A stretch of 64,000 bases of DNA from Rhodopseudomonas julia (lineage in GTDB: Bacteria; Pseudomonadota; Alphaproteobacteria; Rhizobiales; Afifellaceae), in NCBI RefSeq assembly GCF_030813515.1, contig NZ_JAUSUK010000001.1:1302001-1366000 (forward strand), read 5' to 3'. This document shows, one piece after another, positions 18,361-42,084 of this stretch (position 1 is the first letter of the stretch; every line of letters starts with the position of its first letter). The translations under genes and the position numbers were made by a program. Below the pieces are notes generated by a model. It had not been told where the DNA came from, made no database searches, and saw only the letters and a program-made list of their open reading frames with translations.

Positions 18361-20766
18361 ATGAAATTCACTCTCTCCTGGCTCAAATCCTTCCTCGACA
18401 CCGACGCCTCGGCAGAGGAAATCGCCGACAAGCTCACCATGATCGGGCTCGAGCTCGAAAGCCTCACCAACCCGGCCGATGCGCTGAAGCCCTTTGTCAT
18501 CGCGAAGGTGCTCGAAGCCAAGCAGCATCCAAACGCCGACAGGCTGCGCGTCTGTCAGGTCGATCCGGGCACAGGCGAGGCCATTCAGGTCGTCTGCGGC
18601 GCACCCAATGCCCGAACCGGAATGATCGGCGTTTTCGCGCCCGTCGGCTCTTACGTTCCAGGCACCGGCATCGAGCTCAAGGCCGGCAATCTCCGCGGCC
18701 AGGCCTCGAACGGCATGCTGGTGTCGGAACGCGAATTGATGCTCTCCGACGATCACGAAGGCATCATCGATCTTCCCGATGACGCACCGGTCGGCACGCC
18801 TTATGCGGCCTGGGCGGGGCTGGACGATCCCGTCATCGATATCGGCGTGACCCCAAACCGCCCCGATGCTCTCGGCGTCTACGGCATCGCCCGCGACCTC
18901 GCCGCCGCCGGAATGGGCACGTTGAAGCCGCTCGACACGGCACCGGTCGAGGGCGCGTTTGAAAGCCCGATCGGCGTCGAGCTGCGCTTTGCCGACGAGG
19001 ATACGAGCCCCTGCCCGCATTTCGTCGGCCGTTATATCCGCGGCGTCAAGAACGGCCCCTCGCCGGCCTGGATGCAGAAGCGGCTACGGGCGATCGGGCT
19101 TCGGCCGATTTCTGCCCTTGTCGACGTCACCAATTACATGACCATCGCCTATGGCCGCCCGCTGCACGTCTTCGATGCCGCGAAAGTCAAAGGCACGATC
19201 CATGCGCGCCTGGCAAAGCCCGGCGAAACCATCGAGGCACTCGACGGGCGCACCTATACGCTCGACGAGACGATGACGGTGATTGCCGACGATGCCGGGC
19301 CGGAAGGACTTGCCGGCGTCATGGGCGGCGAGGTGTCGGGCGTCAGCGAGACGACGACGGAGGTGTTTCTGGAATCGGCCTATTTCGACCCCATCCGTAC
19401 CGCCTCCACCGGCCGCAAGCTCAATCTTCTTTCCGATGCGCGCTATCGCTTCGAGCGCGGCATCGACCCGGCCTTCACCGAGCCGGGCGCGGAGATCGCC
19501 ACCCGCCTCATCCTCGACATGTGCGGGGGCGAAGCCTCCGAGATCGTGATAGCCGGGGAAGCCCCGCTCAGAAACGCCAATGCGCGCCTGCGCATGGACC
19601 GCGTAAAGACGCTGGGGGGCGTAGAGATTGCTCCACGAGCACAAGTCGACATTCTAGAAAGTCTCGGCTTCGCCGTTGCCGGCACCGATGAGGAGATCGT
19701 CGCGGCGATCCCCTCCTGGCGTCCGGACGTGAATGGCGAGGCAGATCTCGTGGAAGAGATCGTGCGTATCCATGGGCTCGAGAAGATCGCGCATGTCATG
19801 CTGCCGCGCACGGACGCGGTCACGAAGCCGAAGCTTTCCGTGCAGCAGCGGCGCCGGTTTCGAGCCGCCCGCGGTCTTGCTTCGCGCGGCTTCAACGAGG
19901 CCGTCACCTGGTCGTTCCTGCCGTCAGATCAGGCGCGTCTCTTCGGCGGAGGCGAAGACCGTCTCGCACTCGACAACCCGATCTCCACGGAACTCTCCGA
20001 TATGCGGCCCTCGCTGCTTGCGGGACTGATCGCGGCCGCCTCCAAGAACGCCGACCGGGGAACGGAAACGCAGGCGCTTTGCGAGGTCGGACAGGTCTAT
20101 CCGGGCGACCGCCCGGAGGATGAACGCCTCCACGCCTCGGGCATCCGCCTGGGCGCGACGGGACCGCGCAGCGCGCTTCAGGCGCCGCGCGGCGTCGACC
20201 TTTTCGACGCCAAAGCCGACGTGCTCGCGGTTCTGGAACTTCTCGGCGCACCTGTCGACAAGGTTCAGGTGCAGGCCGAAGGGCCCGACTGGTATCATCC
20301 GGGGCGTGTCGGCACGGTCACTCTCGGTCCGAAGAACAAACTCGCCACATTCGGCGAACTTCATCCCCACATCCTGGAAGCCTTCGATGTGTCGGGACCG
20401 CTCGTCGGCTTCGAGATCGACATCGACGCCATTCCGGTGCCGAAATCGCAGCGTGCCGCACGCACGGCGTTGAAGATTTCGGGTTACCAGACGGTTCGAC
20501 GGGACTTCGCCTTCGTGATCGAAGACAGTGTTCCGGCGGAAAAGCTGGTGCGTGCGGCGAAGGGTGCGGAAAAAAGCCTGATTACTCAGGTCAACGTCTT
20601 CGACGTCTTCAAGGGCGCGGCGATCGGTGAAGGCTATAAATCCCTTGCCATCGAAGTGACGCTCACGCCTGATGACCGGACACTGACAGAAGCGGAGATC
20701 GAGGCAGTTTCCAGCCGCGTCGTTCGAGCCGTTGAGAAGGCAACCGGCGGGCAGTTGCGGCGTTGA
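18361..20766 (+). CDS. pheT: Phenylalanyl-tRNA synthetase beta subunit
   Basis: PheT completes the alpha2-beta2 PheRS and provides tRNA anticodon recognition and editing of mis-charged tyrosine. The 801-residue protein has the N-terminal tRNA-binding domain (residues ~40-150), the B3/B4 editing domain, the B5 domain, the catalytic-like core and the C-terminal FDX-ACB domain, where the conserved RRDF segment is visible. The length is normal. It is followed by an inverted repeat and a terminator. Confidence 0.97.
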   Translation: MKFTLSWLKSFLDTDASAEEIADKLTMIGLELESLTNPADALKPFVIAKVLEAKQHPNADRLRVCQVDPGTGEAIQVVCGAPNARTGMIGVFAPVGSYVPGTGIELKAGNLRGQASNGMLVSERELMLSDDHEGIIDLPDDAPVGTPYAAWAGLDDPVIDIGVTPNRPDALGVYGIARDLAAAGMGTLKPLDTAPVEGAFESPIGVELRFADEDTSPCPHFVGRYIRGVKNGPSPAWMQKRLRAIGLRPISALVDVTNYMTIAYGRPLHVFDAAKVKGTIHARLAKPGETIEALDGRTYTLDETMTVIADDAGPEGLAGVMGGEVSGVSETTTEVFLESAYFDPIRTASTGRKLNLLSDARYRFERGIDPAFTEPGAEIATRLILDMCGGEASEIVIAGEAPLRNANARLRMDRVKTLGGVEIAPRAQVDILESLGFAVAGTDEEIVAAIPSWRPDVNGEADLVEEIVRIHGLEKIAHVMLPRTDAVTKPKLSVQQRRRFRAARGLASRGFNEAVTWSFLPSDQARLFGGGEDRLALDNPISTELSDMRPSLLAGLIAAASKNADRGTETQALCEVGQVYPGDRPEDERLHASGIRLGATGPRSALQAPRGVDLFDAKADVLAVLELLGAPVDKVQVQAEGPDWYHPGRVGTVTLGPKNKLATFGELHPHILEAFDVSGPLVGFEIDIDAIPVPKSQRAARTALKISGYQTVRRDFAFVIEDSVPAEKLVRAAKGAEKSLITQVNVFDVFKGAAIGEGYKSLAIEVTLTPDDRTLTEAEIEAVSSRVVRAVEKATGGQLRR

Positions 20767-20780
20767 CACCTGAAGAGACC

Positions 20781-20808
20781 TTCCACAGCTTGTGGTAAAG
20801 CTGTGGAA
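20781..20808. repeat. Perfect 11-bp inverted repeat after pheT
   Basis: Arms 20781-20791 and 20798-20808 are perfectly complementary around a six-base loop. No T-run follows, so it is not a standard intrinsic terminator. It could be a protein-binding palindrome or an RNA-stabilising stem at the pheT mRNA end. Confidence 0.6.
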
Positions 20809-20829
20809 ATCTCATGATTTTAGATGAAG

Positions 20830-20865
20830 AACGTCCAGCGTCCCAAGATGTTGGCGGGCGTTTTT
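20830..20865 (+). terminator. Probable intrinsic terminator of pheT
   Basis: AACGTCC (20830-20836) pairs with GGGCGTT (20856-20862), with one wobble. An inner CCAA/TTGG helix and a run of T at 20861-20865 complete it. Confidence 0.65.
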
Positions 20866-20916
20866 GCTTTGTTCTTCCCGGACGGAAGCCTTCAGATCAA
20901 AGCAGGAACATCGTCC

Positions 20917-21471
20917 TCAGACGATCTCGTCCATCACCTCGTCTGAGAGGTTCTCCGGGACAATCGTGACCGGGATAGGGAATGCGGCGCCGCCTTTTTG
21001 CGCGATCGAGGAGACGAGCGGGCCCGGACCTTCCGAGCCACCAGAGGCGGCGAGGACGAGAATGGCGATGTCCTCGTCTTCTTCGATGAGCTTGCGGATC
21101 TCATCGGCGCGCTTGCCTTCACGGATGACGAGCTCGGGCTCGATCCTCGACACGTCGGCCATGCGCGAGGCGAAGCGGCCCAGAATGTTCTCCGCCTCCT
21201 CCATCGCTTCGGCGCGCATCACTTCCTCGACCCCCAGCCAATGCTGGAAATCGCCCGGTTCGATGACAAAAAGCATGGTGACGGCACCGTTGGTGCGCTC
21301 CGCACGCTTGGCGGCATAGCGCATCGCGCGCACGCATTCCGGCGTGTCGTCGATCACCACCAGGAATTTCCGCTTATGGCCCTCGGCCCGGGCGCGTCTC
21401 GGCCGCATCATACGCCCATGCTGCCATTCGCGGGAGCTGTCAGCAAGACTGCCGTCGCCATCATGCGGCAT
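20917..21471 (-). CDS. Universal stress protein (UspA family)
   Basis: The protein has a single Usp domain beginning at [15 protein letters not shown] and ending with [11 protein letters not shown], with the SGGSEGPGP loop in place of a typical nucleotide-binding loop. Usp proteins accumulate under stress; the exact role here is unknown. The ATG at 21471 has GGGAGG but only two bases of spacing and overlaps the trpS stop. A start at 21411 (MMRPRR) would match the usual N-terminus better. It is co-directional with trpS, murJ, glnD and mutS. Confidence 0.87.
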
Positions 21472-38477: not shown

Positions 38478-38897
38478 ATGTCCCGTTTTGAAAGTTCTCA
38501 GTCTGCAGGCCCGTCGCAGCGTCAGCTGCGGGTGGGCGAGCTTGTCCGGCACGCGCTTGCGGAAGTTCTGCAGCGCGGCGAAAGCAACGATCCAGCGCTC
38601 GAGGGCGTGATCGTCAGCATTTCCGAGGTGCGCATGTCAGCGGATCTCAAGCATGCGACCGCTCTCGTTCATCCCCTCGGCATCGAGGATGGCGACGGCG
38701 TCGTGGCGGCGCTCAACCGCAGTGCACGCTTTCTGCGCGGGCGGATCACGCCGGCGCTTCGTCAGATGCGCTCCATGCCGGACCTCAAATTCCGTCTCGA
38801 CACGCGCTTTGAGGACGATGCCCGCATCGACGAATTGCTGCGCTCGCCGGACGTACAAAAAGATCTCCATGACGACGATGAAGAGGAAGGCCGCTAG
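38478..38897 (+). CDS. rbfA: Ribosome-binding factor A
   Basis: RbfA is a KH-fold factor that helps late 16S processing. The 139-residue protein starts near SQRQLRVGELVRHALAEVL and has the LRGRITPALRQMRSMPDLKFRLD stretch (the last two motifs are family hallmarks). The ATG at 38478 gives the normal length. truB begins two bases after its stop. Confidence 0.95.
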   Translation: MSRFESSQSAGPSQRQLRVGELVRHALAEVLQRGESNDPALEGVIVSISEVRMSADLKHATALVHPLGIEDGDGVVAALNRSARFLRGRITPALRQMRSMPDLKFRLDTRFEDDARIDELLRSPDVQKDLHDDDEEEGR

Positions 38898-38899
38898 AC

Positions 38900-39802
38900 A
38901 TGTCCCGTCGGCGCAACAAAGGCCGCGACGTTGACGGCTGGCTCGTCCTCGACAAACCCGTCGGCATGACCTCGACGGAAGCCGTCGCCAAAGTGAAACG
39001 CGCTTTCGATGCGAAAAAGGCCGGCCATGCGGGAACCCTCGATCCCCTCGCCTCCGGCTGTCTGCCCATCGCTCTCGGCGAGGCGACGAAAACCGTCGCT
39101 TTCGTCATGGATGGGCGCAAGGTTTACGAATTCACCGTGCGCTGGGGCGAGAAGACGGAAACCGACGATCGCGAGGGCCCGGTCGTCGAGCGCTCGGACG
39201 TGCGACCCAGCGAAGACGACATCCGCGCCCTCATTCCCGATTTCACTGGCACGCTGTCGCAGGTGCCGCCGCGCTATTCGGCCGTCAAGATCGCCGGCGA
39301 GCGAGCCTACGACCTTGCCCGCGACGGCGAGACGGTCGAGCTCGAGCCGCGCGAGATCGTCGTGCACCGTCTCGATCTCGTCGAATGCCCCGATGCCGAT
39401 CATGCGATCTTCCATGCCGAATGCGGCAAGGGCACCTATGTGCGGGCCTTGGCACGCGACATGGCCGAAGAGCTTGGCACCGTTGCGCATGTCTCTGCCC
39501 TTCGCCGGCTTGTCGTCGGACCTTTCGGTGAAGACGACATGGTGCCCTATTCGGAGCTTGAGGCGAATGCCGAGACGCCGGGTGCCTTGTTGCGCCCGGT
39601 CGAGGCTGGGCTCACCGACCTTCCCTCGATCCGAATCGACAATCACGCCGCGATGCGGCTCAGAAATGGTCAGGCCGCTTTCCTGCGCGGCGCCGATGCC
39701 CCGATCGGTGGCAGTGCCTATACGGTCTCGGAAGGCCGCCTCGTCGCGCTCGTCGATATCGCCGGCGGCGAAATGAATCCGCGCCGGGTGTTCAAGCTCT
39801 AG
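38900..39802 (+). CDS. truB: tRNA pseudouridine(55) synthase TruB
   Basis: TruB makes pseudouridine 55 in the T loop of tRNAs. The 300-residue protein has the catalytic aspartate in GHAGTLDPLASG (Asp48) and the RNA-binding segments typical of TruB. It is the last intact gene before the unusual insert that separates it from rpsO. A weak stem-loop at 39804-39824 follows the stop. Confidence 0.96.
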   Translation: MSRRRNKGRDVDGWLVLDKPVGMTSTEAVAKVKRAFDAKKAGHAGTLDPLASGCLPIALGEATKTVAFVMDGRKVYEFTVRWGEKTETDDREGPVVERSDVRPSEDDIRALIPDFTGTLSQVPPRYSAVKIAGERAYDLARDGETVELEPREIVVHRLDLVECPDADHAIFHAECGKGTYVRALARDMAEELGTVAHVSALRRLVVGPFGEDDMVPYSELEANAETPGALLRPVEAGLTDLPSIRIDNHAAMRLRNGQAAFLRGADAPIGGSAYTVSEGRLVALVDIAGGEMNPRRVFKL

Positions 39803-40351
39803 GAGCCAGCTGAATAGGCTGGTTATTCGTCCGGTGGTCACTGGCTCGTCGGTGATCTCCATCGTTGTCGACCTGAGCGCATAGCCGGAGCCGAAAACGG
39901 TCTCAAGTGCTGATGGATCGAGCATTCTGCCGCTCGCGGGATTGGAAGGGTCGGAAAAGGTTGCCAGTTGCGGATAGTTCTTGCGGCCAAGGGTAACGGT
40001 CCCCTTGTAGGTCTGAACAAGCCCGAGCCGTTCGCCACCCTCGCTATCTGCTGGCAACTCGTCGGCGACGGCCCGCTGGAGACGCCATTTCATCTCCTCG
40101 TCGACAAGCACCAGAAGCAATCTGCCCTGGCCGAGGTCGACAATGGCAGCTTCACCGGTGAGCTTGGACCCCTCCATCGTCGCGGCAAGCCAAACCCGCC
40201 CATACCAGCTTTCGACCTTACTTGCGGTCGAACCGCCGACCGGGCCAGACGGAGTGTCCACGATCAATGTCAGCTTCTGGTGCCAGCTATAATAATCACG
40301 ACATCCAGCAAGCGCCAACATGATGCCAAGGATGAGAATCGCTCGCTTCGT
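39803..40351 (-). pseudogene. Broken lipoprotein gene (start codon altered, 3' end lost at truB)
   Basis: The frame on the minus strand reads KRAILILGIMLALAGCRDYYSWHQKLT and onward, an ordinary lipoprotein signal with lipobox LAGC. The position where a start codon is expected is ACG (40349-40351); the only ATG (40321) leaves a signal of just five residues. At the other end, recognisable protein continues to ITDEPVTTGRI, and the frame then runs on antisense through all of truB, so the native C-terminus is missing. The body resembles an uncharacterised lipoprotein type I recall from Hyphomicrobiales. I read it as a decaying, truncated gene. Confidence 0.6.
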
Positions 40352-40433
40352 AGGCCTGTACTACGTGTCATCTCTGATCGGCGTGGCGCTAATCAGAGTG
40401 TGCCGCGCGGAGCAACATCAGCGTGTCCAGCAC

Positions 40434-40937
40434 TCAACGTAGATGTTCATCAGGATCCGCGTCTACCGGGTTTCCGTCGGCATCCACTCTGTATCTATTG
40501 ATGAGGTTGACCAACGTGACGGCGCAATAGGTGGGCGAGTCGTAAATCGCTTGGTGAATGTTCGTTTCTCGTTGCTGCAGAAAGGACCTCGGCAGTTGTC
40601 GATAGCGGCGCTCTTTCTTCCACTTCTCGTTTATGGAAAAGAGCGCATAGACAAATTGATAAAGGGCGCTGCCGAAGCCCGCGTAATCGACTAGGTCTTT
40701 TCGCGACGTTGAAAGTGATGCTCGTATCATCTCGGCGGCTTTGCGTTCGCGACCCGACAAATCTGCATAGTCCGGCCAGATAAGGGACGGGTTGTAATCA
40801 CCACCGGCCCGTTCAACGGCAATCGCAAACGGCATAAGCCAATACATGCCGTCCGCGGGGCCAGTGAGTTCTCGCTGACTGCGAAGCGTCGATAGACCAT
40901 TCAGATAGCTGGCTCGCAGCTCGGCCTCATCAATCAT
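40434..40937 (-). CDS. Hypothetical protein in the truB-rpsO insert
   Basis: The ~167-residue soluble, charged protein begins MIDEAELRASYL and has aromatic-rich helical segments, but no signal, membrane span or motif I recognise. The start at 40937 has GGAG nine bases upstream. An ATG at 40952 and a GTG at 40973 are alternatives. Its codons look less GC-rich than those of truB or pnp, suggesting acquisition. It lies 80-110 bp upstream of the broken lipoprotein gene, on the same strand. Confidence 0.6.
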   Translation of the reverse strand: MIDEAELRASYLNGLSTLRSQRELTGPADGMYWLMPFAIAVERAGGDYNPSLIWPDYADLSGRERKAAEMIRASLSTSRKDLVDYAGFGSALYQFVYALFSINEKWKKERRYRQLPRSFLQQRETNIHQAIYDSPTYCAVTLVNLINRYRVDADGNPVDADPDEHLR

Positions 40938-40973
40938 GCCAGCTTTCTCCATTTTCCAGTGGAGAGACTGCAC

Positions 40974-41724
40974 AATGTTTCTGCAGTTCCCTCATGTCGG
41001 AATCTGACTCCCAACTGTCCGACCTGCACACAGCGCTCATTGCGAAATGCCCCCATTTTCGATGCGCCTCCAAACTGAACCACAGGGGACGTTAAGAAAT
41101 TTGCGCCGTTAGGCTAAGTGGCCGTGAGATGTGCGCATGAGGCTGTGGGATGTCGCCGATCAAAAGCAGTGCAGTCGAGATCGAAGCCTCTATGTCCTTT
41201 AGCGTGATGGCCGGCAGCGACTGCTATTGGCGACCCATGGATCTGATCTCTACGACCGACATTGGGGCGCGTTGCAGTCGAAGTGCGGCAGCCACCCGAA
41301 TGGCGGCTCACCCTGCTCCGCCACCCAGAAGCCGCCTGTCAGGAATCCACCCCTGAGCTGCCCTAAGCGTAAGGTACCAAGCGTTAGCTAGGTCGTGAAC
41401 TCACAAACGAGGCGGCAATGGTATGAGCGGATTGGCTCCGATACGAGGCGCGAAGGCGCAGGAACTGCGCGCATTTTCAAGCCCTTCGCAACGACGTAGC
41501 CGGGCGACGTAGCCGGGCAAGGCCGCCATATGCTTTGCACGGCGAAGTGGCTGCGGGACCGCTTCGCGCATAGCTTTGCCATTTCAGCCGCCATTTTCGT
41601 CCCGCTTATGCGTTCACGACCGAGGAAAGTGGCAAGGCAATTCTCCCCGCAGCCGCCTCGGCACTTTAAAAAAGCCGCATTGTTCCGTATATGGCGGCCA
41701 ACGGTTCCGCCCGCCTTGCGTGGA
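40974..41724 (+). other. Gene-free remainder of the truB-rpsO insert
   Basis: About 750 bp carries only short, unconvincing frames on both strands. I saw no transposase, tRNA or clear terminal inverted repeat. A 13-bp tandem duplication (41492-41517) is the only repeat noticed. The rpsO promoter should lie in the last ~150 bp, but no strong pair was found. Confidence 0.5.
41492..41517 (+). repeat. 13-bp tandem duplication
   Basis: CGACGTAGCCGGG occurs at 41492-41504 and again immediately at 41505-41517. It is probably a slippage product in non-coding DNA. Confidence 0.8.
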
Positions 41725-41793
41725 ATGCCATAACGGCAGGAGAGCGGCTTTCCGTATTGCGGCCTTGGCTGGACGACATCCCGGCCATGGCAT
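41725..41793 (+). promoter_or_regulatory. Candidate S15 autoregulatory leader of rpsO
   Basis: ATGCCAT (41725-41731) pairs perfectly with ATGGCAT (41787-41793). Inside it, GGCTGG (41767-41772) pairs with CCGGCC (41781-41786), leaving one U.G pair beside G-C pairs, the type of motif S15 contacts in 16S rRNA. The structure ends 21 bases before the rpsO ATG. S15 leaders are known in alphaproteobacteria; whether this one matches that class was not tested. Confidence 0.5.
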
Positions 41794-41814
41794 CACCCAA
41801 CGAAAGGAACGACG

Positions 41815-42084
41815 ATGTCGATCACACCCGATCGCAAGCAAGAACTCATCAACGAATACGCCACGAAGTCGGGCGATACCGGCTCCCCGGAAGTCCAGGT
41901 CGCGATCCTCTCCGAGCGTATCGCCAACCTGACGGAGCATTTCAAATCGCACGCCAAGGACAACCATTCCCGGCGTGGACTTTTGAAGCTCGTCTCGCAG
42001 AGGCGCCGGCTTCTTGATTACCTGAAGCGCAAAGACGCGGAGCGTTACCAGACGCTCATTTCCCGTCTCGGGCTGCGCCGCTAG
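41815..42084 (+). CDS. rpsO: Small ribosomal subunit protein uS15
   Basis: The 89-residue S15 binds the 16S central domain early in 30S assembly. It has [15 protein letters not shown] and the [10 protein letters not shown] / [10 protein letters not shown] segments of the family. GAAAGGA precedes the ATG. It pairs with pnp in the usual rpsO-pnp order, with a terminator between. Confidence 0.98.

Follow-up and report, generated by a model that had tools for sequence, protein, structure and literature searches.

Why does one Afifella genome carry about 2 kb of additional DNA between truB and rpsO, and from where did this DNA come? The original prediction, made from the sequence of the window alone (i.e. 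the whole stretch of 64,000 nucleotides analysed here), regarded the spacer as the remnant of a horizontally acquired segment now decaying, with a damaged lipoprotein frame, a gene of 167 residues and some 750 bp free of genes. Here we compare the spacer and its flanking genes with those of related genomes, in order to answer both questions. The features under discussion are collected in Table 1.

Table 1. Features of the truB-rpsO region in window coordinates
Feature	Position	Strand	Remarks
truB	38900..39802	+	5' flank; last codons fall in the exchanged tract
Exchanged tract, maximum extent	39773..41855		5' crossover 39773-39781, 3' crossover 41813-41855; from informative sites
Insert proper	39803..41660		between truB stop and rpsO promoter; defined against the short spacers of G001, G002 and G003; GC 57.3%
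Lipoprotein pseudogene	39803..40357	-	lacks a usable start codon and the last ~32 residues; adjoins truB stop
Intact 167-codon gene	40437..40937	-	ATG at 40937, stop codon 40434-40436; inside a 179-codon frame
Interspersed-repeat fragment	41252..41353		sharp right end at CAGGAATCCACCC; found at 3 places in G054, at one in G014 and on two plasmids
MITE-like element	41391..41621		length 231 bp, against 276 bp in G004; terminal inverted repeats GGTCGTGAAC...
Candidate rpsO promoter	41665..41693	+	TTTAAA-17 nt-TATATG; conserved in G003 and G004 (alignment, by eye)
rpsO	41815..42084	+	3' flank; first codons may fall in the exchanged tract

Results

Size, composition and distribution of the spacer

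In the window genome, an Afifella of 3.79 Mb, the gap between truB and rpsO measures 2015 bp from one protein-match end to the other and holds a tract of foreign type, so the 2 kb of unlike DNA noticed originally is indeed there. The spacer was examined in all 10 other genomes of the family, the genus being represented by five genomes with that of the window. The supposition that the two genes usually lie close agrees with nine of the ten, whose gaps range from 36 to 237 bp: 167 bp in both G001 and G002, 200 bp in G003, and 36-237 bp in six members of other genera. The only other long spacer, of 2061 bp, belongs to Afifella sp. IM 167 (G004). The closest relatives of the window are G001 and G002, with flanking DNA 92-96% identical, and both are without the segment.

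A DNA search of the 11 family genomes returned full-length matches to the segment only in the window genome and in IM 167, while G003 matched only by the repeat element, which lies at another place there, and by the rpsO leader. Among 61 genomes searched, with at most five candidates scored for each, any match at all was found in eight, the window genome included; the six besides this genome and IM 167 match only over short pieces, which come from the repeats, from the rpsO leader or from a stretch of 25 bases.

As had been suspected, the segment is poorer in GC, with 57.3% in the insert proper versus 63.7% for the whole window. Of 1243 overlapping sections of the same length, 11 do not exceed this value, and those within half a percentage point of the insert all overlap this segment; single 500-base bins equally GC-poor occur elsewhere (0.56 at 20501-21000). 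An intact segment in most relatives, or a composition like that of the chromosome, had been named as what would contradict a horizontal origin; neither the relatives nor the composition contradict it.

The exchanged tract and its ends

The long spacers of the window and IM 167 are 98.5% identical. Over the 2044 bases from 39772 to 41815 they differ by 30 substitutions, of which the first lies right at the edge, and by two indels, one of 45 bp and one of 1 bp. In overlapping 500-base sections the identity inside the tract never falls below 97.2% (mean 98.5%), whereas outside it, in the 35,709 positions aligned from 20.0 to 62.0 kb, the 624 overlapping sections of this size have a mean of 78.5% (sd 5.5) and a maximum of 92.4%. 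The genes around the spacer tell of another relationship. The window is 91.9-92.0% identical to G001 and G002 in truB, 93.3-93.7% in infB and 93.7-94.0% in pnp, versus 79.1%, 85.8% and 87.2% to IM 167, and by this comparison of identities the flanking genes group the window with G001 and G002 and not with IM 167. The spacer thus differs in its relationship from the genes on both sides, which is the pattern of an allele replacement or a horizontal regulatory transfer.

The informative sites show where the sequence type changes. From 39403 to 39772 in truB, 68 sites of the window agree with G001 and G002 and not with IM 167, and 9 sites show the reverse. Within this part, the stretch 39685-39760 is mixed, with five sites of each type, so the left end of the exchange may be patchy, or else these sites are homoplasious; directly after it stand four sites of the G001/G002 type at 39762-39772, the last being 39772 itself. 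From 39781 on, all five informative sites at the end of truB are of the IM 167 type. At the other side, the last site of the IM 167 type before rpsO is 41813, and the rest of rpsO from 41856 onward has 28 sites of the G001/G002 type and four of the IM 167 type. Towards its 3' end the tract itself includes two sites of the G001/G002 type (41765 and 41801), which we interpret as polymorphism in the donor or as patchiness of the end.

The switches at 39772/39781 and 41813/41856 delimit a tract of ~2.03-2.08 kb, which ends in the conserved coding ends of both neighbours. Breakpoints that lie in this way within homologous flanking sequence, with the left edge somewhat mixed, are the signature of homologous replacement and not that of an inserting element. 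The segment was originally drawn too short, since the foreign tract (39773/39781 to 41813/41855) also includes the promoter and leader of rpsO.

The lipoprotein pseudogene

The only usual in-frame start of the lipoprotein frame is the ATG at 40321, six codons before the lipobox Cys and with an in-frame TAG a short way upstream; as this sole ATG falls inside the signal peptide, it was fair to describe the frame as having no usable start. Its C-terminus is missing as well, as had been said: nine homologues from the 18 non-Afifella loci were aligned, and all nine run 31-37 residues beyond the end of the frame at the truB stop. The lipobox model LPAM_1 stays below the Pfam cut-off for this frame (14.9 versus 20 bits). 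Homologues are present in 34 of 397 genomes of the order, the window genome and IM 167 included, and relatives with 28-36% identity are found on 10 plasmid records. Read by eye, the frame in IM 167 ends at the same point and the same in-frame stop precedes its signal peptide, which makes it probable that the damage is older than the exchange. The two copies differ at 6 of 555 bases, and four of the six changed codons are non-synonymous. PADLOC gave no defence-system match for either the lipoprotein or the 179-codon frame that contains the other gene.

An open frame of 475 codons (38894-40321, minus strand) runs from the broken lipoprotein gene antisense through truB, and its counterpart in IM 167 is open over 520 codons; it is likely a chance frame of GC-rich DNA.

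The 167-codon gene

The second gene was originally described as an unknown one of 167 residues. It is present at full length, and searches of Pfam, PHROGs, NCBIfam and PADLOC with the 179-codon frame returned no family. The methionine at residue 13 of this frame fits the start of the related protein in genome G233, so that the gene probably has 167 codons, and it is complete. Among 397 genomes of the order it occurs in three, namely the window genome, IM 167 (97% identical) and G233 (34% over 150 residues); of 385 genomes of the class, two have a match, the window genome and a weak one in G438 (34% over residues 11-104), IM 167 evidently lying outside that draw. The G233 locus (L066:1129-1959, reverse complement) holds the only clear relative of the protein outside Afifella, and adjoins a frame that reads in translation like an acyl-CoA synthetase. 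A match in a metagenome-assembled genome (L063, 45% over 44 residues) was dropped, being a much longer and otherwise unlike frame around the stretch DADGNPVD, and a single-sequence structure model of the 179-codon frame was unusable (mean pLDDT 40.7).

Between the window and IM 167, the 179-codon frame differs at 8 of 537 bases and the noncoding part at 6 of 757. Five of the eight changed codons are non-synonymous (four of seven within the 167 codons). Taking both frames together, the codon changes since the copies parted appear to be free of constraint, in line with passenger DNA, the numbers being small.

Repeats in the gene-free stretch

The claim of about 750 bp without genes holds insofar as the longest frames wholly inside are of 68 codons, but the stretch is not without content, for it contains a MITE-like element and a fragment of a second repeat. 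The terminal inverted repeats of the former are 34 nt long and 76% complementary. It belongs to a family of ~264 bp with ends GGTCATGRAC... (a copy is, e.g., L016:1504-1764), for which 297 genomes of the order were searched with two candidates scored in each; at least 29 of them have it, counting the window genome and IM 167. Apart from the Afifella pair, 15 copies measure 261-281 bp; seven of these have CTA before and TAG after their ends, and a single genome (G135) has 65 matches to the ends. The family resembles MITEs in its terminal inverted repeats at defined ends, its constant length and its many dispersed copies. A search by end pattern in 10 genomes found no parent transposase sharing these ends; in the 10 genomes, neighbouring inward-facing ends, as read from the listing, are 50-379 bp apart, with no pair at 0.8-3 kb. 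We know of no name for this family.

The second repeat is 71-78% alike in G054, in G014 and in plasmids of Novosphingobium and Aminobacter, where it coincides with no annotated feature. With these two repeats, much of the gene-free stretch is repeat debris; the part at 40974-41251 lies outside both.

Origin of the segment

The segment is present in the window, is nearly identical to that of IM 167, is lacking in the sister species and is bounded by switches of sequence type. Very probably a near relative of Afifella sp. IM 167 within the genus was the source of ~2.05 kb of DNA that recently replaced the truB-rpsO spacer. The incoming DNA would have recombined through the conserved ends of truB and rpsO, presumably by RecA-type homologous recombination, and the non-homologous insert would have ridden along as cargo between these flanks; the same exchange would have supplied rpsO with a new promoter and leader.

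Horizontal acquisition, as originally proposed, is hence strongly supported by absence from the sister species, near-identity to a distant congener and breakpoints in the flanking gene ends. The view of a remnant now decaying fares less well. The lipoprotein gene is broken, but the break is common to the IM 167 copy and the 167-codon gene is not truncated; the one clear loss that the window copy alone has suffered is the 45-bp deletion inside the MITE-like element. What had been taken for a worn-down island appears as a recent exchange within the genus and not as what is left of an old prophage or island. The search for phage or island relatives that had been suggested found no match for the 179-codon protein in phage records, plasmid records or viral contigs; in PHROGs this frame had no match and the lipoprotein reached no more than E 0.23, and the two genes scanned include no integrase, transposase or phage gene.

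Other explanations deserve to be weighed against such an exchange. A mobile element might have inserted independently at one site in both species, which would account for the shared position, the lower GC and the presence of the MITE-like element. This is very unlikely, for the near-identity runs past the insert into codons of truB and through the promoter and leader of rpsO, all of which an inserting element would leave unreplaced; in addition, searches with the two genes hit no family of transposases or integrases, and the inverted repeats that were found lie within the segment or miss the breakpoints. Vertical descent of an old segment from the ancestor of the genus, with selection preserving it in two species and loss in the rest, might be argued from the one intact gene, yet it is hardly credible in view of 98.5% identity inside the tract versus ~78% around it, and of codon changes that look unconstrained in both frames. 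Finally, only two of the 11 family genomes carry the segment, as might result from a chimeric assembly or contamination; the probability of this is practically negligible, since the contigs concerned are 1.97 Mb (window) and 0.43 Mb (IM 167) long with flanks of their own type on both sides, and since the copies are separated by 30 scattered differences and the 45-bp indel.

Direction of the transfer

Identity alone is symmetric, so that the window lineage might equally be thought of as the donor and IM 167 as the recipient, and three of the five sites of the IM 167 type at the end of truB disagree with G003, which fits such a direction; the two that agree are 39781 and 39784. The third congener is useful here, being closer to IM 167 than to the window in truB (83.2 versus 78.2%), pnp (89.3 versus 86.6%) and infB (87.9 versus 84.0%). 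The rpsO leader of the window equals that of IM 167 in 153 of 156 aligned bases, that of G003 in 122 of 156 and that of G001 in 101 of 137, and the bases immediately before the rpsO start are common to the window, G003 and IM 167. A leader nearer to the G003 type than to that of G001 and G002 speaks against the window as donor, and so does the MITE-like element, of which the shortened copy, outside the size range of the 15 other copies, is the one in the window. Taken together, the two observations point to the IM 167 side as the donor and the window lineage as the recipient, a direction that we consider probable, and make the reverse unlikely. It is also possible that a third, unsampled donor fed both lineages.

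Discussion

With the truB stop on one side of the insert and the candidate promoter of rpsO on the other, neither neighbour is interrupted. Judged from the alignment, rpsO now has a leader and a candidate promoter of the IM 167 type; a consensus promoter scan did not list this candidate. For RNA families, the sole match was far below the gathering score and behind rpsO, outside the spacer. The exchange might have been kept for the new promoter and leader or for the orphan 167-codon gene, with the truB-rpsO spacer serving as a site of exchange in Afifella. We hold this to be rather doubtful; were it true, Afifella species would swap the control of a ribosomal protein gene through this spacer.

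The locus gives a nearly base-resolved case of how recombination in conserved flanks can carry non-homologous cargo, together with a ribosomal protein gene's promoter, across an interspecies divergence of ~20%, and it illustrates that a low-GC spacer need not mean an old decaying island. It is an ordinary but clear instance of the exchange of a gene spacer, notable for that divergence and for its closely placed breakpoints. Among the titles listed in searches of the accessible literature, most subscription papers lying outside it, none concerns the truB-rpsO spacer or the MITE-like repeat.

The exchange belongs to a known kind, namely intergenic exchange or island replacement by homologous recombination. 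Horizontal regulatory transfer, as described in PMC9944727, which refers to Oren et al. 2014, means that an intergenic region is exchanged without the genes on either side of it. The present case is alike in that the intergenic region and the downstream promoter were replaced while both flanking genes are of their own type; it differs from that description in that the species are only ~78% identical in the region and that 1.86 kb of cargo with genes was moved, instead of regulatory DNA alone. The replacement of flexible islands by homologous recombination, as described in PMC4033161, similarly exchanges non-homologous cargo between lineages, whereas the segment here is much smaller, has no recognised surface-structure genes and replaced a short spacer rather than another cassette.
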